A stretch of 64,000 nt of DNA, taken from contig OX031071.1 of assembly GCA_943736015.1 (NCBI GenBank), positions 374,501-438,500 on the forward strand, given 5' to 3'. The stretch is from Tridacna crocea. Its lineage: Eukaryota; Mollusca; Bivalvia; Cardiida; Cardiidae. The notes under the pieces are model-generated. The model saw nothing but the letters and a program-made list of their open reading frames with translations, ran no database searches and was not told where the DNA came from. Positions 1 through 62,700 of the stretch are shown one piece after another. The position numbers and the translations under genes are program-made. How positions within the stretch are numbered: the stretch's first letter is position 1; each line of letters begins with the position of its first letter.

Positions 1-59
1 CGTCTGCAAATTCTTTCGGTTTGGAAGAGTCCAAAATATGTCGTTTGGGAAAGGGTTAA
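1..59. mobile_element. Family A TTAA-hairpin MITE, right end only
   Basis: The window opens inside a family A element. Its right terminus reads CGTCTGCAAA then GTTTGGGAAAGGG and stops at TTAA. The hairpin and left end lie outside the window. Confidence 0.75.
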
Positions 60-280
60 TTGTCTGTTTATGTAATTGTTTGGGATAAATTCAAAATCAC
101 GTACCATAGATAAGTATTGGTCTACGATCCCTAACGTTTCTAGTGCTACATGGAATAAAATTTCTTGTTATTTGATAAATTAAGGTCGATATAATATCTT
201 GGTACATTTTGAACCGACCAGAAATTTCTTTGATGGCTATCTTCAAATTAGTTGTTGATACTTTTGTCAATTTTGTCAAT

Positions 281-475
281 TTCCTGAAAAGGCAGGTAAT
301 TTATTATCTCCATTTGTAATGAAAATATCGTGGTTTTAGATTTATAAATGATAATTCTAAGAAAGAAAAAAAAAAGTGGCTCGGTTAGAGTAGAATAATA
401 ATACTCATTTTTTTTAATCATAGCAAATTTTGTAGCATAATATTATAAGGGAAATAGCTGTTTTACTGTAGGGGT
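281..475 (-). repeat. Inverted partial copy of the 24618-24997 foldback element
   Basis: Read on the minus strand this segment matches the interior of the element at 24640-24840. Shared blocks include the TATTTT-rich AAATATCATCCTGC-like part, TTATAAATCTAAAACCAC and the block around GATAATAATTACCTCC. No terminal repeats are seen here, so it is a fragment. From 476 to 700 I see nothing recognisable. Confidence 0.55.
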
Positions 476-702
476 CGCAGATCTTGGCACCGTACTTGAT
501 GATGTTTATGTTATTTTGTCACGGTTAGTGGTTTTTAAACCTGTATTCTCAAAGATCAAACAATAATACAAAATGACAGGTTTATCGTGTTGGAGTTATA
601 ACAGATTTGATTCAGTGTTTTTTTGTGTATTTATATTTCATTTGCCTAATGTTCTTTGAGAAATTATAGAGCTATTTAAGACATAATGATCTTCCATTAA
701 CC

Positions 703-921
703 AGCTATCTCACAATCCCGACTTTTAAGAACCTAAAGAAAGATGCCATTTGAAAATATTGTGGGAACAGGAGAAAATGCTGGTTTTTACCAGCATTTTC
801 TCCTTTTCCCACAATGTTTTCTTCTCTTCCAAAGGTGTATTTCTATTTTTCAGTCGTAATTATTTTTTCTTCGGCAAAAACTTTCAATCGGGACAAATCT
901 TAAATTTTGTTGTTAAGTTAA
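703..921. mobile_element. Family A MITE, degenerate
   Basis: The central hairpin survives (arms around 761-820, GGAGAAAATGCTGG facing CCAGCATTTTCTCC). The termini are eroded: the left CCC end is replaced by CTATCTCACAATCCC and the right end reads TTGTTGTTAAGTTAA. Confidence 0.7.
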
Positions 922-1144
922 ATGTGAAGTGTTATGATCTTATAGAAAGTACAAATGATATTCTCGCCAAAGTTCTAAATATGTTAATGGTTCCACTCTA
1001 AATGCCAAGGGCTTTTGTTACGTACACACCCGGAAAAATAATAAACTTTTATTACACTGCATCCCGTCAATTATAGAATTGCGCTGGCACGAAATAGTTC
1101 CATAGAAATTTAAAAAGTTGTACCCTTTTCTCAGTGACAAATCT

Positions 1145-1367
1145 CTGAGCCATGCTCTGACAAAAGGGGGTTTAAATCATTACAACGAAGAGATCTTCAC
1201 AAAATCACGGATATATAAAATTCATTTTGCTGTACAACCAATGAAATCATGAAGCAGAGTGGTTATTGGGCATACAGAAAATTGACCAATGGCGAAAGGT
1301 TTCGGCCAGGTCAGCCTGCGCGGAATGCAGGTCGATACCTTTCGAAGATGCACTAAGCCCCCTTTTA
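1145..1367. mobile_element. Family D MITE (GAGCCATG ends)
   Basis: The left end GAGCCATGCTCTGACAAAAG is mirrored on the right by TGCACTAAGCCCCCTTTT. The interior carries the recurrent phrase TTTCGGCCAGGTCAGCCTGC, also seen in the copy at 22147-22419. It is non-coding. Confidence 0.6.
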
Positions 1368-1408
1368 ACAGAAGTTAACATAACATATTCCTGCATTCAC
1401 GAGCCACT

Positions 1409-1607
1409 CAGAGCTCCAGATAGAGGGAGTGATTTTGATTTCAAAATTGAAAATGTTAATTACGCACCATCAAACCCTATGTTATGGGTACTTATTAGAA
1501 TTGTCTTATCGTGGCGATTCTAATGAGTACCCACAAGATAGGGCTTGGAAGAGAATTAGTGGATTTAGAAAACCATCACTCCCTCATATCTCAGACTCGG
1601 AGCTGCC
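1409..1607. mobile_element. Foldback element E, copy 1
   Basis: This is an inverted repeat centred near 1510. Outer arms GAGCTCCAGATAGAGGGAGTG and CACTCCCTCATATCTCAGAC face each other. Inner arms GGGTACTTATTAGAATTG and CGATTCTAATGAGTACCC also pair. A second copy lies at 23583-23800. Confidence 0.65.
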
Positions 1608-1611
1608 TATC

Positions 1612-1839
1612 TTAACCCTTTCCCAAACAATCCCTGGTTTTTACGGGTCAGGAATAGAAGCCTTTTGAAAACATTGTGGGAAAAGGAGAAAATGCTGTTA
1701 ACCAGGATTTACTCCTTTTCCCAGAATGTGTTTTTCCTATCATATAGAAAAATCATCTTTTTAGCAACTGTTAATATGTCATCTGCAAAATGCTTTCAAT
1801 TTGGTCTGGTCCAGAATTTGCCGTTTGGGAAAGGGTTAA
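1612..1839. mobile_element. Family A MITE, full length, CCCTTTCCC subtype
   Basis: TTAA flanks both sides. The terminal inverted repeats are perfect: CCCTTTCCCAAAC on the left and GTTTGGGAAAGGG on the right. The hairpin is partly decayed on its right arm (CCAGGATTTACTCC). Confidence 0.85.
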
Positions 1840-2375
1840 TAAAATGCGTAGTTTACTTCAACTATTTTTTTTTTTTCAAGATTTTAGACTTACACAGTTC
1901 ATGATCGACAATACGAAACGTGTTTTGGAAGAAATATCTGTAGACAATCAAACTTTTATAAAACTTATAAACTGTATACGGTGGCATTTTCTGCCACTAC
2001 ACACGAGATAGCTGTTGCAATAATTTAAGAGAAGTATTGTGATTGTTTTTTCCGCGATAAAACTATATCGCGATAATTCTAACTATAACCATATTTTTTT
2101 TTCTTTCGTGCCCATAACTGACATTCACGATAACTATAATTAGACACGGTTTCGGAACACCTTCGTCTACATCCTTTTGAATTCTCCTTTTCCCTGAATG
2201 GTTTTAGAGTTGTTCGTAGGAGACATTTCTATTCGTTTTTGTGATTTTACAGACCTCTGTTTCTTTCCAGTCTTGTCAGATTTTTCCAGTAAAGCTACAA
2301 TTGTCAGTGATTCGAAATTTAAATGACTGCGAACTTATCAAGTCAAAAGGTACCAAGTTCATCCAAATGATAAAT
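1840..2375. other. Unassigned AT-rich DNA
   Basis: There is a run of T at 1865-1877 and scattered AT-rich sequence. I see no gene, repeat boundary or splice-consistent open frame here. Confidence 0.4.
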
Positions 2376-2470
2376 TTTCTATTTATAGATATCGAGAAAC
2401 GGTTTGAAGTCTATTTATAGATATCGAGAAACGATTCGAAGTCTATTTATAGATATCGAGAAACGGTTCG
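2376..2470. repeat. Three tandem copies of a 32 bp unit
   Basis: The unit TCTATTTATAGATATCGAGA plus AACGGTTTGAAG occurs three times with one or two changes per copy. Confidence 0.85.
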
Positions 2471-2689
2471 TACTATCACGATAATTTTATCTCGAATGTC
2501 AGCTTCGAGCCCCATTGAGAAATTTTGCAGCAAAAACAGAAGTTTATCGTAATACTTTTCACAGGAAACGTTTTATTACCCCTTCAAGATAAGAAAACTT
2601 GAATTTTTCACGATAGTTTACTGAAATTATCATGATACCTCTCTCGTATCTCGTGGCAGTAATATGCCACCATACGAATCTCCTAAATC

Positions 2690-2918
2690 TTAACCCCTTA
2701 GTCCATAGATACTCATTTCTACGCATTGCTTGTAGGAGCCTTTGGAAAACATTGTGGCAAAAGGTGAAATTGCTCGTTACGAGCAATTTCACCTTTTGCC
2801 ACAACGTTTTCAATGCTATCAAAAGGTGCCATATACAAATAAGAAACAGCTTCATTCTTGCTGTTATTTAGGGTCAATTAGAGATACCGTAGAAATGACT
2901 TATGGGGTAAAGGATTAA
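2690..2918. mobile_element. Family A MITE, divergent subtype
   Basis: TTAA flanks both ends, with CCCCTTAGTCC on the left and ATGGGGTAAAGGA on the right. The hairpin is perfect over at least 23 bp per arm but differs from the common type in both arms: GTGGCAAAAGGTGAAATTGC faces GCAATTTCACCTTTTGCCAC. The right half does not match the usual family A interior, so this is a separate subfamily. Confidence 0.75.
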
Positions 2919-3170
2919 TACATAATGAAAACGATATTTATGATATAGATCTACTTGGGGTATATAGACCATAATCTGTGAAAAGGGGGCTTAATGCATC
3001 GCCAAAATCTGCACAATCTGATTTGGTTCGAGTTTTTTTCTGTGGGTAAATTTTCTGCTTTGCAAAGGACCATTCTAATTCCAGATTATTTCTATTGTCA
3101 GACAATACAGATCTTATTGATCCACAAGTATGGGATGACTTGTTAGGTATAATGCATCATGTAGATGACC

Positions 3171-3250
3171 ACACCCCTCGCCCCCTTCGCCCCCCCTCGC
3201 GCCCCTCCCCCCTTCACCGCCCTCGCCCCCATCGCCCACCTCGCCCTTGG
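3171..3250. repeat. C-rich low-complexity tract
   Basis: Irregular CCCCTCGCCCCC repeats. The apparent proline and arginine rich reading is a by-product of composition. Confidence 0.8.
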
Positions 3251-3265
3251 CAGAGCATTTTAGAT

Positions 3266-3697
3266 CAGGGCCCATATTCACCAATCATTTTAACTCATTA
3301 CCAAACGACAAAATTTTAGGTTTGTCAAAATTGAAAGCATTTGCAGACAACAGAATAATAGTGAATGAAAATTTGAAATTTGTTTGTGAAGGGTAGAAAA
3401 GATAGTGGGAAAAGGAGAAAATGCTGGTTACCAGCATTTTCTCCTTTTCCCACAGTGTTTTCTAAAGGCTTCTTGCTCAAGGTCGTCAAAAGCAGGGATT
3501 GTGTGGTAAAAGGTTAAGAAAGTTCATGGTCTCAGTCTCCAGAATTTTCTAAATCTGCACAATAATAAAAATAGCACAACTTCTGATTGGCTAAACCAAA
3601 TGGTTTAACCAATCAGAAATTTTGTTGTTTTCAAATTTAGAAAATCTTGAAGAATAAGACTAAACATATTCTTAAGAATAGTTGGTGAATACGGGCC
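3266..3697. mobile_element. Family B palindromic MITE split by a family A insertion
   Basis: The ends GGGCCCATATTCACCAATCA and GTTGGTGAATACGGGCC are inverted repeats. The centre (3576-3630) is a palindrome on TTCTGATTGGCTAAACCA. Intact relatives at 7725 and 9611 are about 190 bp; this copy is longer because 3290-3517 is a family A element sitting in a TTAA near the left end. Confidence 0.8.
3290..3517. mobile_element. Family A MITE nested in a family B element
   Basis: TTAA occurs at both ends, with CTCATTACCAAACGAC on the left and GTGTGGTAAAAGG on the right. The hairpin at about 3400-3455 is intact. It is younger than the family B element that it interrupts. Confidence 0.85.
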
Positions 3698-3832
3698 TTG
3701 TATTTTATGAAAAGGAGGCTTGGTGCATTTGTGAAAGTATCGTCTCGGATCACCCTGAGCTGGCCAAAGTCTAGTGAATCGCACATAGCAGTGTAAAGGT
3801 TAAAATTCCTCTAAACCGAACAAAAATCCCCA

Positions 3833-4517
3833 TTAAAGGTCCGTTTATACAGAACGCGAATGCGAACGCGACTTTTGAGCAGTTTTGCCATTCAAATAGA
3901 GCAGGAACGCGAACACGGAAAACCGTTGACGGCTTTCGCGGCGGCTCGTCTTTTTCTTGCTGTGAGAGATAAAATTTGGTCATTTGGAATCATGGCGCAG
4001 GGAGAGTCAGACACGAAGGAGATCATAGTACTGTACTTGTACGCAAAACAACGGAGGAAGAGAAAGAGGTGTGTGTCAGTACACGAACTTTTACATAGAA
4101 GAAGTGAATTTGGAGAGTACCACCACCTCGTACAAAACTACATTTTCATCCTGCAAAATTCAAGAATCATGGCTTCTGTCTTGTCCATTGTCTTGTCCAT
4201 TCTTCTCCAAACTTCACAAGCAAAGTAGACTGGCGCTAGTGCCTAGCTTTTTCTTGGGACGGTCAGGCGTTCAAGTTTCTATTTGTGGAAATGATGTAAG
4301 GGAAGTACCTGCTGATTGGTTGATAGCAAAAAAGCCGCGCGACCTTCTCAGAAAATTCGCTCTGGGGGCAATCAAGGCGGTCGTTCGCGCGAACAAATAT
4401 TTGTTCGCGTTCGCGTTCGCTCTGTATTTGAACGGTTCCTCTACAAATCACTAAAATATTGCAGGACGAAAAACCGCGTTCGCTTTCGCGTTCGCGCTCT
4501 GTATAAACGGACCTTTA
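3833..4517. mobile_element. Harbinger-like DNA transposon, internally deleted
   Basis: Terminal inverted repeats AAGGTCCGTTTATACAGAAC and CTCTGTATAAACGGACCTT bound about 680 bp. Subterminal GAACGCGAACGCG-type motifs occur in inverted orientation at both ends. The outermost bases are TTAA/TAA-like and self-complementary, so the target duplication (TTA/TAA, as in PIF/Harbinger, or TTAA) cannot be settled. The interior encodes a fragment resembling the N-terminus of HARBI1-type transposases. Confidence 0.65.
3992..4228 (+). pseudogene. HARBI1-type transposase, N-terminal remnant
   Basis: From ATG 3992 the frame reads MAQGESDTKE, then a basic stretch (KQRRKRKR), then SVHELLHRRSEFGEYHHLVQ. The pattern basic run, then V-H-x-x-L-x-R-R-x-x-x-G-x-(F/Y)-H-x-L-V is typical of the start of PIF/Harbinger nuclease proteins such as HARBI1 and its active transposon relatives. 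The reading frame leaves this similarity about 50 residues in and stops at 4228. The whole catalytic DDE region is missing, and the remaining element length could not hold it. In a complete family member the protein would cut and paste the element in partnership with a Myb-like protein. It is not expected to be functional here. The family assignment rests on recognising one motif, so confidence is moderate. Confidence 0.5.
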
Positions 4518-10454: not shown

Positions 10455-11970
10455 TTAACCTGTGGCCTAGAAAGATACAGCTAAAACAATTTGGGCAAGA
10501 ACGATATGTCTAAAGCAATTTGGCCTTGAACGATATGTCTAAAACGATTTGACCTTGAACGATACAGGTAAAACAATTTGGCCCGGAACGATTTGTCTAA
10601 AGCAGTTTGGCCTTGAACGATACAGCTAAAACAATTTGGATAGAACGATACAGCTAATACAGTTTGGCCTAGAACGATATGTCTAAAACAATTTGGCCTA
10701 GAAGCGATATTTCTAAACAATTTGGCCTTAAAAAGTATAGCTAAAACAATTTGGGCAAGAACGATATGTCTAAAACAATTTGGCCTAGAAGCTATATTTC
10801 TAAACAATTTGGCCTAGAATGAGATTTCTAAACAATTTGGCCTTGAAAGATACAGCTAAAACAATTTGGGCAAGAACGATATGTCTAAAACAATTTGGAT
10901 AAAAGGATACAGCTAAAACAATTTGGCCTAGAACGATATGTCTAAAACAATTTGGTCTGGAACGATACAGTTAAAACAATTTGGGCAAGAACGATATATC
11001 CAAAACAACTTGACCTAGAACGATATGTCTAAAACAATCTTCCTAGACCGATATGTCTTAAAACGCTTTGGCCTGAAAAATATGGCTTAAAACAATTTAA
11101 ATTTAGAACAATATGGCTCAAAACCATTTGGCCTTGAACGATATGATTATAAACAATTGTGCCTTGAACGATATGATTATAAACAATTTGGCCTTGAACG
11201 ATATGGCTTTAAACAGTTTGGCCTAGAACGATATGGCTTTAAACAATTTGGCCTAGAACGATATGATTATAAACAATTTGGCCTAGAACGATATGGCTTT
11301 AAACAGTTTGGCCTAGAACGATATGATTATAAACAATTTGGCCTTGAACGATATGGCTTTAAACAGTTTGGCCTTGAACGATATGGTTTAACACTATTTT
11401 ACCTAGAACGATATGGTTTGAAACAATTTTTGCCTAAAACATTATCGCTTAAAACAGTTTGGCTTAAAACAGTATATCTTAAAACAATATGATCTAGAAC
11501 GATATGGCTCAAAACATTTTTGCCTAGAACGATATGGCTTAAAACAATTTGGCTAAGAACGGCATGTCTTAAAACTATTTGGACTTAAACGAAATAAATG
11601 AAAACAGTTTGGCCTAGAACGAAATGGCTTAAAACAATGACCAAGAGAAAAAATGCCTTAAAACAATTTGACCCAGACCGAAATGTCTTAAAACAATTTT
11701 GCCTCGAACGATATGGCTTTAAATAATTTGGCCTAGAACGATATGGCATAAAACAATTTGACCTAGAACGATATGACTGATGGCAGTCTGACCTAGAACG
11801 ATATGGCATAAAACAATTTGGCCTAGAACAATGTCTGAAAACAACTTGACCTAGAACGACATTGCTTAACACAATTTAGTCTAGAATGATATTTTTTAAA
11901 AGCAATTTGGCCTTGAAAGATATGTCTTGAAGCACTTTGGCCTTGAACGATATGGCTCAAAACAACTTGC
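10455..11970. repeat. Satellite array with 29-30 bp unit, about 50 copies
   Basis: The unit is close to GGCCTAGAACGATATGGCTT followed by TAAACAATTT (30 bp). Units from about 11160 to 11400 are almost identical and exactly 30 bp; earlier ones are often 29 bp (ATGTCTAAAACAATTTGGCC). Because 30 is a multiple of three, frames stay open on both strands over the regular part (LERYGFKQFG per unit on plus). Degraded relatives of the unit (GGACGAATTGG, GGACGAGTTGG) begin already near 10290. I see no start context, splice signal or domain, so I do not call a protein. Confidence 0.9.
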
Positions 11971-13230: not shown

Positions 13231-13399
13231 AACAATTACTTAAAAATTCTTCTCCTCTGAAACCGCCCAACAGATTTCAGTGAAACTTCACAGAAATGAT
13301 CCTTAGGTGATGCACTTTCAAAATACTTCAAAGATTTGAATTCCATGGAGAACTCTGGTTGCCATGGCAACCGAGAAAAAAAACTTTAAAAATCTTCTT

Positions 13400-14560
13400 G
13401 TCCCAAACCGTAAGGGCTAGAGCTCTCCTATTTTGCATGCAGCATCATCTAGTGACCCTCTACCAAAATACTTCAAATTATGGCCCTAGTGTTGAAAATG
13501 GCCCTATGTTGTGGGTTCTTGGATTTCACATGGAGATAAAGAAGGAAATCTTTAAAAATTTTCTTGTCGCAAACCATAAAGGCTAGAGCTCTCATATATG
13601 GCATGTAGTATCATCTAGTGACCCTCTATTAAAATACTTCAAATAATGGCCCTAGTATGGAAATTGGCCCTATGTTGTGGGTTCTCGGATTTCACATAGA
13701 GATAAAGAAGGAAATCTTCAAAAATCTTCTTGTCCCAAACCTTTAGGGCTAGAGCTTTCATATTTGGCATGCAGCATCATCTAGTGGCCCTCTACCAAAA
13801 TACTTCAAATTATGGCCCTAGTGTTCAAAATGGCCCTATGTTGTGGGTTCTTGGATTTCACATAGAGATAAAGAAGGAAATCTTTAAAAATCTTCTTGTC
13901 CCAAACCATAGGGGCTAGAGCTCTCATATATGGCATGTAGTATCATCTAGTGGCCCTCTACCAAAATACTTCAAATAATGGCCCTAGTGTGGAAATTGGC
14001 TCTATGTTGTGGGTTCTCCGATTCCACATAGAGATAAAGAAGGAAATCTGTAAAAAACTTTATGTCCCAAACCTTAAGGGCCAGAGCTTTCATATTTGAC
14101 ATGCAGCATCATCTAGTGGCCCTCTACCAAAATACTTCAAATTATGGCCCTAGTGTTCAAAATGGCCCTATGTTGTGGGTTCTTGGATTTCACATAGAGA
14201 TAAAGAAGGAAATCTTTAAAAATCTTCTTGTCCCAAACTATAAAGGCTAGAGCTCTCATATATGGCATGTAGTATCATCTAGTGGCCCCCTATTAAAATA
14301 CTTCAAATAATGGCCCTAGTATGGAAATTGGCCCTATGTTGTGGGTTCTCGGATTTCACATAGAGATAAAGAAGGAAATCTTCAAAAATCTTCTTGTCCC
14401 AAACCTTTAGGGCTAGAGCTTTCATATTTGGCATGTAGCATCATCTAGTGGCCCTCTACCAAAATACTTCAAATTATGGCCCTAGTGTTGAAAATAGCCC
14501 TATGTTGTGGGTTCTCAGATTTCACATAGAGATAAAGAAGGAAATCTTTAACTATACTAG
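13400..14560. repeat. First core tandem array, about seven units of 166 bp
   Basis: Each unit holds GGGCTAGAGCTTTCATATTT, GCATCATCTAGTGGCCCTCT, ATACTTCAAATTATGGCCCT and TTTCACATAGAGATAAAGAA. Adjacent units alternate between two subtypes (CTCATATATGGCATGTAGTA and TTCATATTTGGCATGCAGCA), implying a higher-order dimer of about 332 bp. Confidence 0.85.
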
Positions 14561-14889
14561 CTAGGGTTATGAAATTTCATGGGTGGATAGATCTCATCAA
14601 GGGGGAGTGCAGTGCACAGGAATCATAACTCCCGCTTCCTTAATTTTTAGCTCACCTGAGCACAAAGTGCTCAAGGTGAGCTATTGTGATCGATCAATGT
14701 CCGTCATTCGTCCGTCTGTCTGTCAGTCTGTTCACAATTACAAAAAAATCTTCTCCTCCTAAACTAACAATCAGATTTCAGTCAAACTTCACAGAAATGA
14801 TCCCTAGATGATGCACTTTCAAAATACTTCAAAGATTTGAATTCCATGTAGAACTCTGGTTGCTATGGCAACAGAGTGAAAAAACTTTA

Positions 14890-16030
14890 AAAATCTTCTC
14901 GTCAAAAACTGTAAGGGCTAGAGCTTTCATATTTGGCATGTAGCATCATCTAATGGCCCTCTACCAAAATACTTCAAATTGTGGCTCTAGTCTTGAAATT
15001 GGCCCTATGCTGTGGGTTCTCAGATTTCACATAGAGATAAAGAAGGAAATATTAGATAATCTCCTTCTCCCAAACCGTAAGGGTTAGAGCTCTCATAATT
15101 TGCATGTAGCATCATCTAGTGGCCCTCTACTGAAATACTTCAAATTATCACCTTAGTGTGGAAATTGGTCCTATGTTGTGGGGTCTCGGATTTCACAAAG
15201 AAATAAAGAAGGAAATCTCAGAAAATGTTCTTGTCCCAAACCGTAAGGGCTAGAGCTTTCATATTTGGCATGCAGCATCATCTAGTGACCCTCTACCAAA
15301 ATACTTCAAATTAAGGCCCTGGTGTGAAATTAAACCTATGTTGTTGGTCTTGGATTTCACATGAAGACAAGGAAGGAAATCTTTAAAAACCTTCTTGTGC
15401 AAATGGTAAAGGCCAGAGCTTTCATATTTGGCATGTAGCATCAGCTAGTAGCCCTCTACCAATTTTCGTCAAATTATGTCCCTGATGTAAAGAATTTGCC
15501 CTATGTTGTGGGTCTCGGATTTCACATAGCGATAAAGAAGGAAATCTTAGAAAATTTTCTTGTACCAAACCGTAATGGCCAGAGCTTTCATATTTGGCAT
15601 ATAGCATCATCTAGTGGCTTTCTATCAACATACCTCAAATTATGGCCCTATGTTGTAGGTTCCCGGATTTCACATAGCGATAAAGAAGGAAATCTTAGAA
15701 AATCTTCTTCTCCCAAACCATAAGGGCTAGAGCTTTCATATTTGGCATATAGCATCATCTAGTGGCTTTCTATCAACATACCTCGAATTATGGCCCTATG
15801 TTGTAGGTTCCCGGATTTCACATCGCGATAAAGGAGGAAATCTTAGAAAATCTTCTTCTCCCAAACCATAAGGGCTAGAGCTTTCATATTTGGCATGTAG
15901 CATCATCTAGTGGCCCTCTACTAAAATACTTCAAATTATGGTCCTGGTGTGAAAGTTAGCCCTATGTTGTTGGTCTCAGATTTCACATAGAGATAAAGAG
16001 GGAAATGTTTAAAAGTGTTCTTGTGAGCAC
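14890..16030. repeat. Second core tandem array, about seven units
   Basis: Same unit as in the first array but more diverged and with shorter units (about 149 bp) at 15610-15880, where a segment between ATTATGGCCCT and ATGTTGTAGG has been lost. Confidence 0.8.
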
Positions 16031-18968: not shown

Positions 18969-19027
18969 AAATCATATTTTTCCTCCCAAAAGTAACTTTT
19001 GTAATGTTTATGAAAGGTTTCCTGTTA

Positions 19028-19492
19028 TATAACGGCTGTCAGAGCACCTGTCTATATATAGCGGCTGTCAGAGCACCTGTCTATATGTTAGCGGCTGTCA
19101 GAGCACCTGTCTATATTTAAAGGCCGTCAGAGCACCTGTCTATATTTAACGGCCGTCAGAGCACCTGTCTATATATAGCGGCTGTCAGAGCACCTGTCTA
19201 TATATAACGGCCGTCAGAGCACCTGTCTATATTTAAAGGCCGTCAGAGCACCTGTCTATATTTAACGGCCGTCAGAGCACCTGTCTATATTTAACGGCCG
19301 TCAGAGCACCTGTCTATATATAACGGCTGTCAGAGCACCTGTCTATATATAACGGCTGTCAGAGCACCTGTCTTTATATCACGGCTGTCAGAGCACCTGT
19401 CTATATATAACGGCTGTCAGAGCACCTGTCAATATATAACGGCTGTCAGAGCACCTGTCTATATATAACGGCTGTCAGAGCACCTGTCTATA
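19028..19492. repeat. 29 bp minisatellite, 16 copies
   Basis: The unit is GGCTGTCAGAGCACCTGTCT plus ATATATAAC. Two variant classes (GGCTGTC and GGCCGTC; ATATATA and ATATTTA) are interleaved. Flanks at 19020 and 19495 are unique. Confidence 0.95.
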
Positions 19493-22564: not shown

Positions 22565-23035
22565 TTCCGAGCCCAAATAGCTCATTCACTTACGTAAAGG
22601 ACTTGAGAACACGGGGTCCAGGGTTCGATCTCCGGCTACGACCCCTGGCTACGACCCTTGGTTACGACCCCTGGCTACGACCCTTGGTTACGATCCCTGG
22701 CTACGATCCCTGGCTCGGCTCCTGGCTACGATCCCTGGCTACGACCCCTGGCTCGGCCCCTGACTACGACCCCTGGCTACGATCCCTGGCTACGACCCCT
22801 AGCTACGACCCCTGGCTACGACCCCTAGCTACGACCCCTGGCTACGACCCCTGCCTGCGATCCCTGGCTACGACCCCTGGCTACGACCCCTGGCTACAAT
22901 TCCTGGCTACGACCCCTGGCTCGGCCAATTTCTTTCCGAGGATTGATGATAGTCACTGCGACAGTGCTCTCCCACCGCTAACCATTGTTTCGACGATGAT
23001 CATGTGGGAAAGTAGCCAAAGGTTGGATCTACTTA
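22565..23035 (+). mobile_element. SINE-1 expanded by an internal minisatellite
   Basis: The tRNA-like head (AAATAGCTCATTCACTTACG, GGGTTCGATCTCCGGC) is separated from the body (CTCGGCCAATTTCTTTCCGA, GGATTGATGATAGTCAC) by about 300 bp of a 13 bp tandem repeat. In other copies the head and body are directly joined at this point. Confidence 0.8.
22628..22930. repeat. 13 bp minisatellite inside the SINE
   Basis: The unit is GGCTACGACCCCT, about 23 copies with variants GGTTACGACCCTT, GGCTACGATCCCT and GGCTCGGCCCCT. The period of 13 cycles through all frames, giving a 13-residue peptide repeat (YDPWLRPLATTPG). The long open frame here is therefore an artefact. Confidence 0.9.
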
Positions 23036-39277: not shown

Positions 39278-39506
39278 TTACCTCTTTACCAAACGACAAA
39301 ATTTCAGACTGGTCCAAATTAAGAGCACGTGCAGACAACAAAATAAAATTAGCTCAAAAATTGTACTTTGTTTCCAACAGAGTGGAAAACAATGTGGGAA
39401 AAGGAGAAAATGCTGGTTACCAGCATTTTCTCCTTTTCCCACAATGTTTCCAAAATGCTTCTGTCTCAGGGTCGTATAAACCAGGGATTGTTTGGTAAAG
39501 GGTTAA
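39278..39506. mobile_element. Family A MITE, first of a tandem pair
   Basis: The left flank is TTAC, then CTCTTTACCAAACGAC. The right end GTTTGGTAAAGGG runs into a TTAA shared with the next copy. Confidence 0.9.
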
Positions 39507-39737
39507 CTCTTTACCACATGAGAAAATTTTTGACTAGTCCAAATTGAAAGCATTTGCAGACAACAAAATTTAATAAAATGTGACTGAAAATTTGAAATTC
39601 GTTTTGAGAAGGGTAGAAAACATTGTGGGAAAAGGAGAAAATGCTGGTTACCAGCATTTTCTCCTTTTCCCACAATGTTTCCAAAATGCTTCTGTCTCAG
39701 GGTCGTATAAACCAGGGATTGTTTGGTAAAGGGTTAA
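39503..39737. mobile_element. Family A MITE, second of a tandem pair
   Basis: TTAACTCTTTACCACATGAG left and GTTTGGTAAAGGG then TTAA right. From the hairpin to the right end (about 110 bp) it is identical to the preceding copy, while the left halves differ clearly. Confidence 0.9.
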
Positions 39738-53700: not shown

Positions 53701-56700
53701 AGAAAATTGACATAGAGCAAAACATTTTGATCTAGATCAGCCTGCACAGTCTGTGCCAATTGACCTGGGCCCTGTTTCATCAAGGCAGCTACGAGCAAAA
53801 TTTGTGTAAGTTTTACGTAACTATAGTATAGTTGCCTTAATCTGCAGCAAGGTGCATGAAAACTATCATTGAATATTTTTGAAAACTATTGGGAAAAAAA
53901 AAATTTTCCAGCATATCTTATCTAAATAGCTTGCAAAGCTAAAAGTTCCAAGAAACTTTGATTTATCGCAATAGTTTTCAGAAATAATCATGATGGTTAT
54001 GTCGTATCTTGTAGCGGTTTAATGACACTGTACTATAGTTACGTAAAACTTGCGCAAATTTTGTTTGGAACTACCTTGGTGAAACGGGGCCCTGGTCTAT
54101 ACTTTTTGTAGACGCCCTCATCACTTATTCACAAAGAAGTTTTTTCCAGTTTTTTCCCCCTACTAGATAATGGTTTTCTAGCCTTTCATAATCACATAAT
54201 TTAGACCACATTTTGTATTCTGTCTGCACTTGTCTGCAAAATTTCAATGCTTTCAAATGAGCAAGTTGGTTGGTAACTGCAATGAAACTGAATCTGTATA
54301 TGTTGACCAAAAACAGGTGCTGGTTGAATGTGTTTTACACTACTTTCATCTTTATTGCGAAAACATGCTTATTTATGCATGTCCTAGGTTTCACAATTAC
54401 AAGGCTACAAAATACAAAAGTACTGTCATTTCGTAAGAGCTAAAAATATTCAGGTCATTTTTGCAACTGTCACATTAACTGTCCACTGATGCTTTAAATT
54501 TAGAAGAGTCTAAATTTAGTGATCTAGAATAGGGTTAACATAACCACATATCAATATTTAGACTAGTGTAAATTGAAAGTGCTTGCAGACAACAAAATAA
54601 ACGCAACTTAAAAGTTTAAAATTTGCTTTCAACAGGGTTGAAAACATTTTGCGAAAGGAGAAAATGCTGATTACCAGGTTTATAAAAACCAGGGATTGTT
54701 TGGTAAAGGGTTAAAGGAATTAAGTAACATAAATGATTTAAAACAGTAAACCAACCAACCTCGTCATATCTTCCCTATTCTCGGCCAGGAAATAGAAAGT
54801 TTTACTGTTGTACTTCTCTGCCTTGAAGGCAAACTTGTTCGGGTCACCATGCCTTGATACAACATACCCTTGTAGGGGGATAGCACCCAGGGGATCTGTG
54901 TCCTGTAGGTAAATGGGTTTTCTTTTTTATCATATACTAGTAAATTTCAGGCTCTGGTAATAACTTGCTGTCAGATGAAACTAGAGCTGTCACTGAATAT
55001 GACTTAATACTTCCCCCCCTCCCCCAAGCGCTTTGACAGAAAAAAAAGTGTCAAGTTCAAGCGGAGATAATTCCTCAACTAGGAAGATTTAACACTTGAA
55101 AATTGCGTCTTGCAAATTTTCAATATATGATCAATATATGTGCAATGTTTCAATACAATTGAAAGAAAACTAGGAGAAGTTTGCAACACAAAATTACTAG
55201 TATTTTATATACAGATGGACACACGAACAGAGAGGCTGATTCTAGTATACCTCTGAAAATTTAACACAGACAGAGAGAATCAGTATCTACACACTGAAAT
55301 GTGGTCCCAAATATAATATGATAATGAACCTCATGCATAGACTAAGCATGCATTGATTTGCAATTGATTGGTCAAATCGTTATACTGTAATATTAACCCC
55401 TTACCACACAATGATGACTTTTAATGCCCATGGGAAAGAAGCCTTTTGAAAACATTTTTCCACAATGTTTCCTACCCTATCAAGGAAAATTGCACCATAT
55501 GAGCCACACTGTAATTATCATCTGCAAATGCTTTCAATTTGGACACGGCTAAATTGTTTTCTTCTGGTAAAGGGTTAATCAACCATTCATAAAAATAGAG
55601 TTACCGCAATCAGCACAATTGTCCTGTTTTGTTTGCCATTTTCAAATAAAATGTCAATAATTGTAAAAATGTTGTCGTTGAAAGTTGTAAGTATTTGATA
55701 AAAGTAGTATTAAGTGGTAGGAATTTTCCTGGTCCTTGTATTTACTTCTCACTGCATAAAAAAAATTTGACATTGCGCGAGACTGAAGGGTGAGTGCGAT
55801 ACCAAATTTTCTCAAGTAGCTCCAATGCAATACAAGCACCAGGAGTGTTACTACATAATTTCTGCATTCATCACATAACCTCTCTTGTTTTCAGAAATAT
55901 GTACCCATTATGCAATTTGTTTCGTTATTCATTTTTGTTTTCCCAGTTGTGTGACATCATTTTTCAACATCATTTTAAATCTGTTTTACAGGAATTTATC
56001 ATTGATTTACTTCAAAAACCTCATAACTACAGCTTGTTTCAAAATGATCTTCCTATTGGACAGTATAAATTCAAGATCAGACTGTATGTTCTGCCCACAA
56101 AAGATTTATCAGTTGGCTCAGCAGTGTGAGGGCAAAAAACTCTCACACATTCAAAGGTGTTTCTTACTTTTGCGTCACAACTATTTTGTCATCTGCAAAA
56201 GCCTTCCATTTATGAGAGTCTCGTACAAATTTTTGTTGTAAAGGACTATGATACATACCTGTTCATTTTTGTAGTAATATAGACAGTTATCTCTCCGTAA
56301 AATGAAGAAGCGCTTCTTCCAGATTCGCAACAGGGTTGAGGACGTCTGTTTCTGCATGAAGCCTGTCTGGACTGGAAGTTGCAGGTTCAATACCGGAGAT
56401 AAATCACCACTGCCAACCTCTAACTTCAGATTTAATCCATCTGGATATGAAAAAAAATTAGTGTTGTATTGTGCTTGTTTCTCTTTCAAGTATTGTTTCC
56501 CTTTCAATTATAACAATACAAACGTTTCCCTTTCAAGTATTACAATACCATACCCTTTCAAGTATAACAATACAAATGTTTCCCTTTCAAGTACTATTAT
56601 TGTTTCCCTTTAAAGTATTACAATATGATTGTTTCCCATTCGAGTATTTCATTATGATTGTTTCCCTTTCAGGTATTACAATAGGATTCTTTCCTTCCTT

Positions 56701-59700
56701 TCTAGTATTACAATATGATTGTTTCCCTTTCAAGTATTACAACATAATTGTTTCCCTTTTAAACCATTACCACACAATCCCTACTTTTGACGCTCCTGAG
56801 AAAGGAGCCTTTAGAAAACATTGAGGGAAAAGGAGCAAATTCTAGTAACCAGCATTTTCTCCTTGTCCCACAATGTTGTCTACCCTTCACAAAACAAATT
56901 TCAAATTTTCAGTCACTTTTATTTTGTCATCTGCAAATGCTTTGGATTTGGACAAGGCTAAAATATTGTCATTTGGTAATGAGTTAAATATTACAATATC
57001 TCTCAAGTATTACAATATTGTTTCTCTTTTAAGTACCGTATTTTCGTGTGTATACCACACAGGCATGTATAACTCACACCACTAACTTTACCTTGAAATC
57101 TGGGAGAAAAGTCCATTACTGGCATATTGCTCGAGTTCTGAATAAAGCATTTTGTCGAGAAAAAGTTTTGTGTACTTCAACTCATGACGACAGCAAATGG
57201 TGTTCGTTTTATCAAGGGAGGAAACTTTTTTATGCTCTTTAAAATCAAAGTTCCAAGGACTTAACAAAGTCATGAGGACAGTGAAGTAAGTTCATCAGTC
57301 CTCTGATGCGGGATATCAAATGTCAAGGGTATCTGGTCAGCATTCCCTATCTGTGATAAGTGGAAGTCATGCTGTTTACAAATAGGGATCACACACAGCC
57401 CACTTTCACATGTCAAGATCGCCGATCAACCATAAATTGATTGACACATTTTTGTAATCTCAGGTCTTCAAAAGGAATTAACACAAACAGAAATAAAATT
57501 AATTTTATGATTTTTTTCCCAATTTGTTTATTTCAATTCATATATGATAATATGATTGTGAAAATAATGAGAATGGCTGTGACGCATATTGTTTCAAAAT
57601 TTAGAAAAGGCCTAATGGTGTCGTATTATGATCTACATGAGAGGCTGGTGCCGAGGTGGGGGTAAAAAAACACCCTAGTTCAGTTATGGTAATGTATAGT
57701 ACTCATCCCCTACTTTGAAAATAAATCTGGGAGAAAAAATGTGTGAGGTGAACTCATACAAATATGGTATTACAACGTGGTTGTTCCCCTTTCAAGTATT
57801 ACAATATAATTGTTTCCCTTTAAGGTATTTTAGTATGATTACTTCCCTTTCAAGAATTACAATATAATTGTTTCCCTTTTAAATATTACAGAATCTCTCA
57901 AGTATTACAATATTGTTTCCCTTTTAAATATTACAGTATCTCTCAAGTATTACAGTATTATTTCCCATTTAAGTATTACAACATGGTTATTCCCCTTTAA
58001 AATATTACTATATGGTTGCTTCCATTTCAAGTATTACAATATGATTGTTTCACATTCAGCACTGAAAGAAGATATAGTGAGAAGCAGAAAAATGCTATTT
58101 TCTGTAAATTTTTCCTTTTCAAAAAACATTTTATTACTGGACAATCTTGATATTATTCCCCCCACATAAGAGCTAAGCAAAACTCACTCCTATGTACAAG
58201 TTGAATAATTTCATCATGGTCGGACTCTAGTACATTGACCCCATTCACAGATATCAAAACTTGTCCTTCTTTCACTCCTGCCTTCTCAGCTGGACTTCCT
58301 AAAATGTAAAAGACAAAGAAAAACAATCAACTTTCTGCCAGATGACAACATTAGAATCGTTGAAACTTGAAGCAAATCAGCCGACAAATCTCGAGTAACT
58401 AAAATAGTAGGATTTGTCTTTGTAAGAATAAATAATCCAATATTTTCCTGTAAAAGTAAAATTTTTTTAACTCTTTACCACACGAGAAAAATCTAGACAT
58501 GGTCCAAATTGAAAGCATTTGTAGACAACAAAATAAAGGTGATTGAAAAATTGAAATTTGTTCTGGGAGGGGAAGAAAACACTGTGGGAAAAGGAGAAAA
58601 TGCTGGTTACCAGCATTTTCTCCTTTTCCTACAGTGTTTTCAAAAGGCTTCTTTATCAGGGGTGTCAAAAGTAGGGACTGTGTGGTAATGGGTTAAATTG
58701 AATGCACCTTTAGATGGGTAGAAAACATTTTGGAGAAGGGAGAAAATGCTATCTACCAGCTTTTTCTCCTCCAACAATGTTTAAAAAGCCTTCTTCCTAC
58801 AGGTCATTAACACAAGACTGTTAGGTAGAGAGTTTAAAAAGCCTTCTACCAAAAGGTTATTAACACACAAGACTTGTTAGGTAGAGAGTTTAAAATGCCT
58901 ACCTCCTGAAGATTATTAACACGCAAGACTGTTAGGTAGAGAATTTAAAAAACCCTACTACCTAAACATCATAAACACACAAGACTGTTAGGTAGAGTTT
59001 TAAAAAAAGCCTACTACCTAAAGGTCATAAACACACAAGACTGTTAGGTAGAGAGTTTAACTCTTTACCACACAAGAAAATTTTAGACTCGTCCAACTTG
59101 AAAGCATTTGAAGACGACAAAATAAAATTGACTGAAAAATTGAAATTTGGTTTGGGAAGGGTAGAAAACATTGTGGGAAAAGGAGAAAATGCTGGTTACC
59201 AGCATTTTCTCCTTTTCCCACAGTGTTTTCAAAAGGCTTCTTTCTCAGGGTCGTTAAAATTCGGGCTTGTGTGGTAAAGAGTTAACCCATTACCACACGA
59301 GAAAATTTTAGACTGGTCCAAATTGAAAGCATTTGAAGACGACAAATAAAGGGGACTCAAAAATAGAAATTTGTTCTGGTAAGGCTAGAAAACACAGTGG
59401 GAAAAGGAGGAAATGCTGGTTACCAGCATTTTCTCCTTTTCCCACAGTGTTTTCAAAAAGCTTCTTTCTCAGGGGCGTCAAAAGTAGGGATTGTGTGGTA
59501 ATGGGTTAAAAAGCCTACTTCATAAATGTCATTAACACACAAGACTGTTAGGTAGAGAGTTTAAAAAGCCTACTATCTAAACATCATTAACACACAAGAC
59601 TGTTAGGTAGAGAGTTTAAAAAGCCTACTACCTAAACATAAACACGCAAGACTTTTAGGTAGACTTTCAAAAAAGGATACTATCTAAAGGTCATAAACAC

Positions 59701-62700
59701 GCAAGACTTCTAGGTAGAGTTAAAAAAGCCTCCTTCCTATTAACACGCAAGATTTTTCGATAGGGAGGTTAAAAAGCCTTCTTCCTATAGGTCATTAATA
59801 TGCCAGACTGTTTGGTAGAGAGTTTAAAAAGCCTTCTTCCTAATGGTCATTAACACACAAGACTGTTAGGTAGAGAGTTTAAAAAGCCTACATCCTAGAG
59901 GTCATTAACACACAAAACTGTTAGGCAGAGATTTTAAAAAGTCTACTACCTAAATGTCATAAACACACAAGACTTTTAGGTAGAGGGTTTAAAAAGCCTA
60001 CTTCCTAGAGGTCATTAACACACATGACTGTTAAGAAGAGAATTAAAAAAGCCAACTTCCTTAACATTATTAACACACAAGACTGTTAGGTAGAAAGGTT
60101 AAAAAGACTACTACCTAAAGGTCATAAACACGCAAGAGTGTTAGGTAGAGAGTTTAAAAAAAGCCTACATCCTAGGGGTCATAATCAATCAAGACTTTTA
60201 GGTAGAGAGTTTAAAAAGCCTACATGATAGAGGTCATAAACACACAAGAGTGTTAGGTAGAGAGTTTGAAAAGCCTACATCCTAGAGGTTATTAACACAC
60301 AAGACTGTTAGGTAGAGAGTTAAAAAAGCCTACTTCCTAGAGGTCATTAACACACAAGACTTTTAGGTAGGGAGTTTAACCCTTTCCCAAACAAGCCCTG
60401 GTTTTTACGTGTCTGCAGTAAAAGTCTCTTGAAAACACTGTGGGAAAAGGAGAAATTGCTCATAACGAGCAATTTCTCCTTTTCCCGCAGTGTTTCTACC
60501 CTTTTGGAGAACTTTCTGCCGTTTTCTCCAAATCTAAAATTGTCGTCTGCAAACTCTTTTGGTTTGGAAGGGTCCAAAATTTATCATTTGGGAAAGGGTT
60601 AAAAAGCATTCGTCTTAAAGATAATTAATACGCCAGACTGTTTGGTAGACAGTCAATGAATGTACCTGCATCAATGCCCGACACCACCGCAGGTTTACTG
60701 TCAAGAATGTGTATCCCAAAACTGTCCCTGTCTGTCTTCTCTATATTGTAGGTCTCCACATTATCTAAAATGTAAGAACTAAATTAACTCTATCATCACA
60801 GCAACAAAAACTTTTTCATCAACTGACATGTTTCACCCCAGCAAAGTGGGTTGAGGCCCCGAGAATGAAGCTTTTAGAAAACATAATGAGAAAAGGAGAA
60901 AATGCTGGTACGCAACAATTTCTCCTTTTCCCACAATGATATTTACTCTTTAACCCATTACCACACAATCCCTACTTTTGACGCCCCTGAGAAAGAAGCC
61001 TTTAGAAAACATTGTGGGAAAAGGAGAAAATGCTGGTTCCCACAATGTTTTCATCCCTGCTGGAAACGAGTTTCAACTTTTGAGTTCAATTTGTCATTCT
61101 GTAAGTTCTTTCAAAGTGGACCAGTCTAAAATTTTGTCGTTTGGTAAAGAGTTATAAGAAAGTTGCACCTTTAGAGCCACACTGAAATTGTTGTCTATAA
61201 ATGCTTTCCTTTTGGACAAGGCTGAAAATTTTGTCGTCTGGTTGACTCTACCAAGTTGAAAGTATTTGAATTCAACAACACATATGCCCTCAAATGATGA
61301 TTTTTGTTTTTGATAAAGAAGAAAACATTGTAGTTACCAGCATTTTCTCCTTTTCTCACAATGTTTTCAAAAGACTTCTTTTTCAGGGTCATTTAAACTT
61401 GAGATTGTATGGTAACTGTGTCTGAATGAAATTTGCATACGCAGTTAAAGTCAGCAAGCATCAAGCATAACTTTACATTTTAAGAAAATATTTGCACAAC
61501 CTTACTCCAGCTCATATGATTAGGTAAAACAAGAACTGTAAGAATGTACTTTTTAACTGTTTACCACACAACAGAATTTTGGACTAGTCCAAATTGAAAT
61601 CATTTGCAGATGACAAAAAATGGAAATTTGATTTGGAAATGGTAGAAAACATTGTGGGAAAACAAAAATGGTTACCAGCATTTTCTCTTTTTCCCACTGT
61701 TTTCTATAAGGTCTTTCTCATGGTCGTTAAATGTCTGGATTGTACAGTAAAACATAAATAATCCCAAATAAGCTCACCATAAAATTTATGTGTGTAGCGC
61801 CGATACTCCTGCTGGCTTTCGGCCCGCTGAACCAGCCGCTTGTTGACAGAATTATACTGACTCCGAAACTCCTTTTCAGACACAGTTGTGGAAGTAGACT
61901 GTTTGCGCTGGTTTTCATCTCCAGGAGTGAGTAGTGTTCCATTTCCAAATATGCTGTCTATAATATAGAACAAATTGTTTAAGTCTTTGATTTATAACAA
62001 TCCTGTCTGAAGAGAGGTTTTGAAAACATCAGAGGGAAAATGTTTTCTACCCTTTCAGAGATAGAAATCATCATATGGGCTACTTTAACTATTTTCATCA
62101 TATGGCCTACTTTAACCCACACAATCCCTACTTTTGACGCCCCTGAGAAAGAAGCCTTTTGAAAACACTGTAGGAAAAGGAGAACATGCTGGTAACCAGC
62201 ATTTTCTCCTTTTCCCACAGTGTTTTCTACCCTTCCCAGAACAAATTTCATTATTTCAGTCACCTTTATTTTGTCGTCTGCAAATGCTTTTAATTTGAAC
62301 CAGTCTAAAATATTGTTGTTTGGTAAAGAGTTAACCATTTTCATAATATGGCCTACTTTTACCATTTTCCAAACCATCAGCTGCTCTAACAACCATGAAG
62401 AAGTTGTTTTTAAAGGAGAAAATGCTGTTTACCTTTCAAAAAAGTTGCTAGATACATTGTGAGAGAAGAAATTGCATGTAGCCAGCATTTTCTGGAGTAT
62501 TTTCTACCCTTTATTAGAAAAATCTCATTAAAGCCAGAAAGTAGAAAGTGGCTTGGAAAGAATAATGTGAAAGGTACAGGTAAAAGGAATTTCAGGAATG
62601 TTTGTATTGGAGTTTAATGTTCTTTCAACATCTTAGGTTATATCATGGCATTCAGTGAACTTGTGCATGTGTTTCCTGGCTTTATCATATATCATATACC

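Follow-up and report, generated by a model that had tools for sequence, protein, structure and literature searches.

The beginnings of satellites are seldom visible, since old arrays as a rule no longer retain their parent element. The locus described here raises this question within a 64,000-nucleotide stretch of Tridacna crocea DNA (contig OX031071.1, positions 374,501 to 438,500, on C16 of the 1.05-Gb genome G000; hereafter the window), where an intronic tandem array of about 1.2 kb adjoins the hairpin of a miniature inverted-repeat transposable element (MITE) of family A. A first-pass annotation proposed that the end of this MITE had been amplified into a satellite. Does the repeat unit derive from the element, how might it have been multiplied, and is the case a singular one?

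The parent element and the host intron

Family A elements are about 228 bp long, with inverted termini, an internal inverted repeat (the hairpin) and TTAA as target. The window contains 36 near-full copies, most of whose ends carry TTAA, and two genome-wide searches returned 2052 and 5336 first-look candidates, 40 of which were scored in each. Shortness, inverted termini, target duplication and many copies mark the family as MITEs, their non-coding nature being judged from length. MITEs of the piggyBac type have a TTAA target and ends beginning CCYTTT. Family A likewise combines a TTAA target with CYCWTTACC ends, a likeness confined to target and ends, on which membership of the piggyBac superfamily would be putative.

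The array lies, as first annotated, inside an intron: a phase-1 GT...AG intron on the reverse strand (58299-60665) within the PDZ domain of a PDZ-domain gene, whose exons join in frame (GIDA/GSPAEKAGVKEG) and, once joined, match Pfam PDZ_6 (E 9.3e-12) and PDZ (E 2.7e-09). About 22 units of some 55 bp had been noted, and a unit profile search of the array finds exactly 22 with a period of about 55 bp, head to tail and all in the same orientation. They form three forward-strand blocks, comprising u1-u5 (58784-59056; profile match 58779-59057), where u1 is the right arm belonging to the hairpin, the 16 units u6-u21 (59510-60375; match 59506-60376), and u22 (60603-60652; match 60599-60655, E 1.8e-07), which we take to be the right terminus of the original element, at the far edge of the array. 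The blocks are split by family A copies termed A1 (59057-59285, +), A2 (59282-59509, +) and A3 (60376-60602, -). A higher-order repeat was looked for over lags 1-11 and rejected, divergence being flat at 17-20% throughout.

Genome searches with a five-unit query and with a unit-end pattern, both skipping very common words, found no copy of the window array at any other locus, either without an adjacent MITE hairpin or in the manner of a MITE of the pearl/CvA type moving its array to many loci. A classical satellite is abundant, its long arrays being spread over numerous heterochromatic loci; because the window array was found at one locus only, is about 1.2 kb long and is intronic, it is best called a minisatellite or nascent satellite. 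Separately, a dispersed composite with repeats of about 73 bp, distinct from the window array, may fit a mobile MITE bearing tandem repeats of the pearl/CvA type.

Origin of the repeat unit

Against the right-terminal 57 bp of the family A consensus, the unit consensus scored 32, a value that none of 5000 dinucleotide shuffles reached (mean 15.0, sd 2.8, maximum 29), so that the unit aligns far better than shuffled sequence, as expected from its proposed derivation from the right terminus. Other parts of the MITE did no better than shuffles, the score being reached by 663/1000 for the left end, 945/1000 for the middle and 633/1000 for the hairpin, while the reverse-complemented left end, which carries the same inverted terminus, matched weakly (36/1000). 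Among 12752 non-MITE 57-mers of the window, two scored at least 32, both overlapping, at 56008-56071. A profile built solely from MITE right ends, with no array unit included, recovered 16 of the 22 at E <= 0.01, rising to 19 at E < 1, and the family A profile found ten units besides u1, with weak E-values (0.003 to 3.4).

The register of the array agrees with this derivation. One continuous family A match (58708-58834; profile 94-226, E 8.5e-19) passes from the hairpin into u1, which bears out the annotated start of the array at a hairpin base. Allowing up to 3 mismatches, the 25-base unit end has 26 genome matches (reversed control 0), 16 in the array and 10 elsewhere; nine of the latter are found where a family A profile match reaching the right terminus ends, and the tenth (L080) directly follows a family A copy whose right half is deleted. 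The five-unit query has two matches outside the array, both of them right ends of family A. With hairpin, u1 and u2 as query, 26 of 38 off-array matches on the hairpin-to-arm strand stop at query positions 137-149, about the end of u1, and 12 stop earlier (40 of 2052 candidates scored). The window thus presents what defines a satellite or minisatellite from a transposon terminus, namely a head-to-tail array, homology to the terminus beyond chance and continuity with an element copy.

Taken singly, units vary: eight of the 22 beat all of their own 300 shuffles, u3, u10, u13 and u22 do poorly (25-64/300) and u8 fails (175/300). Such poor alignments, in a window so crowded with family A, would suit an unrelated minisatellite that merely lies beside MITEs. 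This chance resemblance is refuted by the 0/5000 shuffles, the continuous match from hairpin to unit and the position of all ten outside matches at family A ends. A different reading takes the 55-bp unit for a tiny mobile element with TTAA ends that inserted repeatedly into its own TTAA; most intact unit boundaries do carry TTAA, and many units contain a partial inverted repeat of 8 bp (CTACCTAA/TTAGGTAG). In the unit alignment u1, u11 and u12 carry CTTCTTCCTA instead, the inverted repeat being a derived state, the units stand in one orientation only, and no free-standing unit occurs among the genome matches to the unit end, all ten off-array ones being at family A ends. We regard this micro-element reading as very improbable and rejected it.

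The probable founder copy and later insertions

Upstream of the hairpin lies the decayed left arm of a family A MITE (58331-58466, +; profile 2-104 at 58329-58428; nhmmer E 5.2e-05 over the window and 2.2e-07 locally), and the end of the left arm with the internal hairpin follows at 58697-58783 (+; profile 94-226 over 58708-58834), leading into u1. The letters TCAA stand before the left arm (58327-58330) and again after u22 (60653-60656) and are candidate left and right target-site duplications. The array therefore probably lies within its own founder MITE, which would have its left half at 58329-58428 and be bounded on either side by TCAA. Four matching letters make a weak border, and the founder left half is decayed (E 5.2e-05).

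Between the founder left half and the hairpin, about 50 bp, including 58429-58466, have no family A profile match. The stretch 58429-58466 may be what is left of a second left arm, a slight resemblance whose score was reached by 41/2000 shuffles against profile 1-60 and by 271/2000 against 1-104; as a second left arm it would favour a seed formed by nesting, discussed below.

The first-pass annotation also held that unit-boundary TTAAs had served as targets for three family A insertions. A1 (profile 1-228, E 2.8e-74), A2 (1-228, E 2.8e-70), head to tail with A1, and A3 (1-228, E 8.5e-54), in opposite orientation, do lie at boundary TTAAs. Because A1 and A2 share one TTAA, the three represent two target sites, and the chance of two independent sites both falling at unit boundaries is about 0.29. 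The emptied array has 37 TTAA, a density of 30.2 against 8.0 per kb; sorted by hand, some 20 of them, counting the hairpin base, lie at unit boundaries and 17 lie within units. A preference for boundaries was accordingly rejected; the array is simply TTAA-rich. Beyond these three, a fourth copy, A0 (58467-58696, +; profile 1-228, E 8e-70; 91% identical to the family consensus), sits within the founder upstream of the hairpin, with TTAA at 58467 and 58693.

Relations among the units

In a tree of the 22 units with 76 MITE ends, made without the 52 ends from the window that brought the total to 128, the units form one group (support 82/86); u1, u2, u12 and the pair u11+u22 (98/79) fall outside a derived group of 17 units. 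A second tree with more rows unites the 22 units with lower support, 50/0, and both trees rest on 55-62 columns, which resolve little. A single origin of all units, as read from these alignments, is therefore supported but not firm. Intermediate MITE copies exist (L064, L009, L008), and u1 differs from the right end of L008 at 16.7% of sites. Neighbouring units are barely more alike than units overall (17.0% against 18.5% divergence; 151 of 5000 permutations as low), so the history of exchange is only weakly written in the array.

Other arrays and nests in the genome

That a MITE end was amplified into a satellite is supported in the window; it is no singular case, as other family A copies have done likewise, with other breakpoints. 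Further independent arrays derived from family A are found on C1 (17 units), C14 (8), C18 (about 25) and C17 (4), besides a two-unit duplication on C4, and four of the five arrays (about 4, 8, 17, 22 and 25 units) abut a MITE copy. On C4 (L118), two right arms identical at 55/57 positions (96%) meet exactly at TTAA and have no outer half. The C14 (L153) and C18 (L154) arrays stand beside a MITE, likewise without a same-orientation outer half; every C14 unit includes 17 bp from beyond the MITE end, and C18 has a 45-bp junction, GGTAAAAGGCTTC, lacking TTAA. The C17 array (L155, C17:37331) has no hairpin alongside, and its units hold about 10 bp of non-MITE sequence. A search with the C18 array, in which 40 of 4858 candidates were scored, gave candidate arrays at C5:41217936-41218331, C7:43792474-43792745 and C17:32456283-32457038, which are not in the array counts.

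The C1 array (L132/L151) is most like the window array in its junction. It is itself a nest, in which an outer copy (profile 39-174) ends exactly at the start of an inner MITE (2-227), followed by the 17 units with a 111-bp, two-unit period. Two seed routes can accordingly be read from these loci: C4, C14 and C18 show direct duplication, and C1 shows self-nesting at the hairpin base. At eight loci (L119, L125, L131, L139, L141, L143, L159, L160) the left arm and hairpin of an outer copy are followed by a complete inner MITE and then by the outer right end; they come from about 63 loci chosen by patterns or matches that favour such joints, so the figure is not a rate.

A pattern joining the terminal inverted repeat to the unit start had 266 genome matches (reversed control 0). 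Of the 20 loci read among them, nine belong to a single dispersed composite repeat, and at least seven of the remaining 11 are hairpin-base nests (L088, L089, L093, L098, L101, L102, L103); an interpretation of the matches as widespread tandem duplication was rejected on this composition. A left-arm pattern (AAATTGAAAGC twice, 32-60 apart) gave 340 matches (reversed control 2) and a hairpin-base pattern (AAAAGGCTTCT) 155 (reversed control 0). Among the first 100 left-arm matches of the listing, many have a MITE start in the gap, read as self-nesting at TTAA, and some look in the pattern listing like arrays, e.g. C3:27537331-27537479 and C2:13420734-13420876. Left-arm and hairpin segments thus also appear to form short arrays, and the right arm as uniquely amplified part was rejected; instability would thus belong to the family and not to any particular end.

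A model for the origin of the array

The most probable explanation, in which we place considerable though not complete confidence, is that the right arm of the founder was duplicated and amplified by unequal exchange to 22 units, four family A insertions following later. A family A MITE would have inserted into the intron of the PDZ-domain gene, probably with a TCAA target duplication. The right arm of this copy (55 bp), extending from the hairpin base GTTTAAAAAGCC as far as the terminus GGTAGAGAGTTTAA, would then have become paired head to tail, and unequal exchange would have expanded this pair. The outermost units, u1 at the hairpin and u22 at the far terminus, would have stayed outside the 17-unit derived group. 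Four family A copies later inserted at TTAA, A0 upstream of the hairpin and the other three inside the array. The homology and register of the unit, the unbroken run from hairpin into u1, the later insertions and the independent arrays elsewhere are demonstrated; the outer borders of the founder, the seed step and the exchange steps are what we infer here.

For the seed step the likeliest route, at about even probability, is that the arm was duplicated directly, through slippage or a template switch at the short TTTAA-like matches found at its two ends. Direct duplication elsewhere, at L118, L153 and L154, counts for this explanation; the C1 nest, the weak resemblance to a second left arm and the C17 array without hairpin count against it.

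Self-nesting ranks next, a serious possibility at somewhat below even. A second family A copy would have entered the hairpin-base TTAA of the first in the same orientation, placing the inner right end directly before the outer one, in register and with a TTAA-like junction; unequal exchange would have followed, and in the window the outer hairpin would later have been deleted. The same kind of nest recurs at the eight selectively chosen loci, the C1 array with its two-unit period is one, and the route gains weight because the outer copy stands directly before that array. The stretch weakly resembling a second left arm and the distinct tree lineages of u22+u11 and u1 also fit, and double-insertion dimers are a route to satellites in the account of one review (PMC12628747). 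Against it, the window array has a single hairpin, which requires the additional deletion, the 22 units cluster together against the MITEs (82/86), and L118, L153 and L154 lack a same-orientation outer half.

A transposase could also have built the array through one-ended joining of the right end to the hairpin-base TTAA of a sister copy, adding one unit and a TTAA junction each time. The junctions of the window array and L118 lie exactly at TTAA, but those on C18 lack it, C14 units carry flanking DNA and C17 units non-MITE sequence, and an active transposase would be needed at an old locus; we consider this improbable.

More tentatively, family A might be a recurrent source of satellites, its long internal hairpin being both a landing site for its own kind and a point of replication stalling. 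Under this rather doubtful joint reading, right arms would have been paired repeatedly at the hairpin base, whether through nesting or through template switches at short matches, yielding arrays of 2 to about 25 units. Nearly the whole window intron would then be made from one element and its offspring.

Comparison with known systems

Among the titles and abstract openings returned by literature searches, none describes the window array, a result that makes no claim of absence from print. The closest comparisons are as follows. For the Xstir satellite of Xenopus and its MITE (Hikosaka and Kawahara 2004), MITE, tandem array and MITE-plus-array composites occur side by side (PMC12628747, PMC9659126); the source region is the terminal inverted repeat according to a table in PMC9659126 and internal sequences according to PMC12628747. 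The window array concerns another element and genome, its unit includes the very terminus, and the founder borders may still be visible. In the miDNA4 MITE satellite of Xenopus tropicalis, microhomologies of at least 5 bp are proposed to alter copy number within the MITE, which captured a pre-existing repeat (PMC12628747), whereas the window array consists of the MITE's own right arm.

In the Tetris/TIR-220 system of Drosophila virilis, a non-autonomous DNA transposon supplies the satellite units through its terminal inverted repeat, and unequal crossing-over has been proposed (PMC4079207). Tetris is described there as a foldback element with 220-bp repeats in kilobase arrays in beta-heterochromatin, the repeats also occurring inside mobile copies; in contrast, the family A arrays have units of 45-57 bp and are short and local, one of them in an intron. 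Dimers of transposable elements formed by double insertion, in which insertion-site preference yields tandem copies, have been proposed as a satellite seed (McGurk and Barbash 2018, as summarised in PMC12628747). Family A similarly shows same-orientation nests at the hairpin base, one bearing a 17-unit array, although those dimers are whole elements and the family A pairs are right ends.

The passage from transposon end to satellite is already known from Xstir and Tetris, as these sources describe them, and the value of the present case is a series of stages within one genome: parent copies in great number, a duplicated pair at L118 that keeps 96% identity, and arrays numbering about 4, 8, 17, 22 and 25 units. 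As breakpoints and seed routes can be compared among them, seed mechanism and growth rate are testable by long reads within one species.

Setting and borders of the array

The assembly that holds the window (G000:C16:374501-438500) comprises 1.05 Gb in 31 contigs. A profile scan of the window yields 36 near-full copies of the family A MITE, each of about 228 bp, with a central hairpin, inverted termini (CTCTTTACCAAAC.../...GTGTGGTAAAGRG) and, in most copies, TTAA at the ends. The array, 22 units repeated head to tail with a period of about 55 bp, is broken into three blocks by later family A copies and is contained in the intron at 58299-60665 between two exons of a minus-strand PDZ-domain gene; both the intronic position and the roughly 22 units claimed by the first-pass annotation are thereby borne out, the latter by the count of the unit profile. 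An unbroken match at 58708-58834 (profile 94-226, E 8.5e-19) joins the hairpin and the first unit without a gap, in agreement with the proposed start of the array at a family A hairpin.

A second profile match (2-104, E 5.2e-05) covers 58329-58428, upstream of the hairpin and oriented like it, and TCAA lies immediately outside either edge (58327-58330 and 60653-60656). The stretch 58331-60652 may be read as a single founder MITE whose right arm expanded from within. Its outer borders are those we infer, since about 50 bp separating the two halves that can be recognised lack a profile match and weakly resemble a second left arm (41 of 2000 shuffles are as good against profile 1-60, and 271 of 2000 reach its score against profile 1-104). 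If this reading is right, the GT-AG intron is almost wholly MITE-derived: taking the founder out leaves 41 nt, made up of 28 bp on the acceptor side, 9 bp on the donor side and TCAA.

The window holds further tandem repeats. A 29-bp repeat, ATTGTTTCCCTTTCAAGTATTACAATATA, forms two arrays (56475-56759 and 57767-58058), of which the first contains or adjoins a family A copy at 56759-56986. Arrays with periods of 30 bp (10463-11969), 166 bp (13380-16024), 29 bp (19026-19492) and 13 bp (22634-22921) were compared with family A by profile scan alone.

Origin of the unit

Aligned with the right-hand 57 bp of the family A consensus, the unit consensus scores 32, which none of 5000 dinucleotide shuffles reached (mean 15.0, maximum 29); the left end, middle and hairpin give scores like those of shuffles, and of 12752 57-mers of the window outside MITEs, two from a single place equal or exceed 32. 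The family A profile matches ten units besides u1, the unit next to the hairpin, on the plus strand and over the right end only (profile ~169-228), with weak E values of 0.003 to 3.4, and a profile built from MITE right ends alone recovers 16 of the 22 units at E <= 0.01. Genome-wide, the 25-base unit end with at most 3 mismatches has 26 matches (reversed control 0), 16 in the array and 10 elsewhere. Each of the ten is placed at a family A right end: in nine the profile match extends to the terminus, and the tenth (L080) directly follows a copy that has lost its right half by deletion. Apart from the window array, a five-unit query finds nothing but two family A right ends. Judged by these alignments, the unit is the right end of the family A MITE, as had been claimed. 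A search of the assembly omitting very common words located the array of this unit once only.

History of the units and later insertions

Mean divergence is 18.5% among units and 17.0% between neighbours (151 of 5000 permutations are as low). In a first tree of the 22 units and 76 MITE ends from outside the window, the units form one group (support 82/86), and a group of 17 excludes u1, u2, u12 and the pair u11+u22; in a larger tree, support for the 22 units as one group drops to 50/0. The outermost units, u1 and u22, are among the least derived, which fits growth by exchange within the array.

Four family A copies, A0 upstream of the hairpin and A1-A3 within the array (91%, 94%, 91% and 81% identical to the consensus, respectively), are later insertions. 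The suggestion that TTAA unit boundaries served as insertion targets holds in that both target sites lie at boundaries; A1 and A2 have a common TTAA, and the array was therefore targeted at two sites, not three. Two head-to-tail copies at 39278-39737 likewise have a common TTAA, as at 59057-59509.

Right-arm arrays elsewhere and their seeds

A two-right-end pattern has 23 matches in the genome (reversed control 0): two in the window array, one at the previously read L111, and 20 read as L131-L150. At L132 (C1:75378138-75379405) a full family A MITE carries its right arm 17 times in tandem, its own included, beginning at the hairpin base and terminating in TTAA. In the larger tree the L132 units, which are not one group among themselves, lie outside a group (84/83) that unites all 22 units of the window array with 25 MITE ends. 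A genome search with L132, in which 40 of 5336 candidates were scored, led to L153 on C14 (8 units of 57 bp, the MITE's own included), L154 on C18 (25 right-end matches of 45-bp period downstream of a MITE) and L155 on C17 (4 units without an adjacent hairpin). At L118 on C4 a MITE (profile 10-228) has its right arm doubled, the copies identical at 55 of 57 bases, with a TTAA junction of the same kind as in the window array. Right-arm tandem amplification is not a single event, and the array counts are lower bounds.

Long matches to the C18 array query (C5:41217936-41218331, C7:43792474-43792745, C17:32456283-32457038) are likely further arrays. Pattern listings also contain apparent short arrays of hairpin-plus-arm segments (C8:52847252-52847557, C11:28832984-28833379, C1:62204952-62205109) and of the left arm (C3:27537331-27537479, C2:13420734-13420876); in family A, arrays seem to form from the left arm and the hairpin as well as from the right arm. 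A dispersed composite repeat (L127, ~1-3973; L087, L090, L091, L092, L094, L095, L099, L104, L106) combines ~73-bp tandem repeats, made of half the family A hairpin plus its base, with a right end and a nested copy of family A; L127 and L129 are alignable over ~4 kb at 86%.

Two seed routes for right-arm arrays are documented in the genome, direct duplication and self-nesting. Direct duplication is seen at L118, L153 and L154, where a same-orientation outer half was sought and found at none of the three. Every L153 unit contains 17 bp from outside the MITE end, and the L154 junction, GGTAAAAGGCTTC, lies within the terminus without TTAA; together these observations favour duplication of the ordinary kind, on short matches, over joining by a transposase. 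Same-orientation insertion at another copy's hairpin base has left two tandem right ends at eight loci (L119, L125, L131, L139, L141, L143, L159, L160), and the 17-unit C1 array is such a nest, its outer copy (profile 39-174) stopping where the inner MITE starts. Opposite-orientation insertions at the hairpin base of another copy recur too (L093, L098, L102, L103, L111, L123, L133, L136, L137, L138, L144, L148).

For the window array, self-nesting would have supplied the first two right ends by insertion of one copy into another, a reading to which we give somewhat less than an even chance; against it, the array shows one hairpin only. Because of that single hairpin, direct duplication of the right arm is placed narrowly first, with roughly even odds of having been the seed.

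Place among known systems

Satellites from MITE and TIR sources, Xstir and Tetris included, have been catalogued (PMC12628747; PMC9659126). A transposon-derived satellite is thus a known kind, to which the window array adds a new member, for which minisatellite or nascent satellite is the better name; the less usual feature is the graded series of array stages within one genome.
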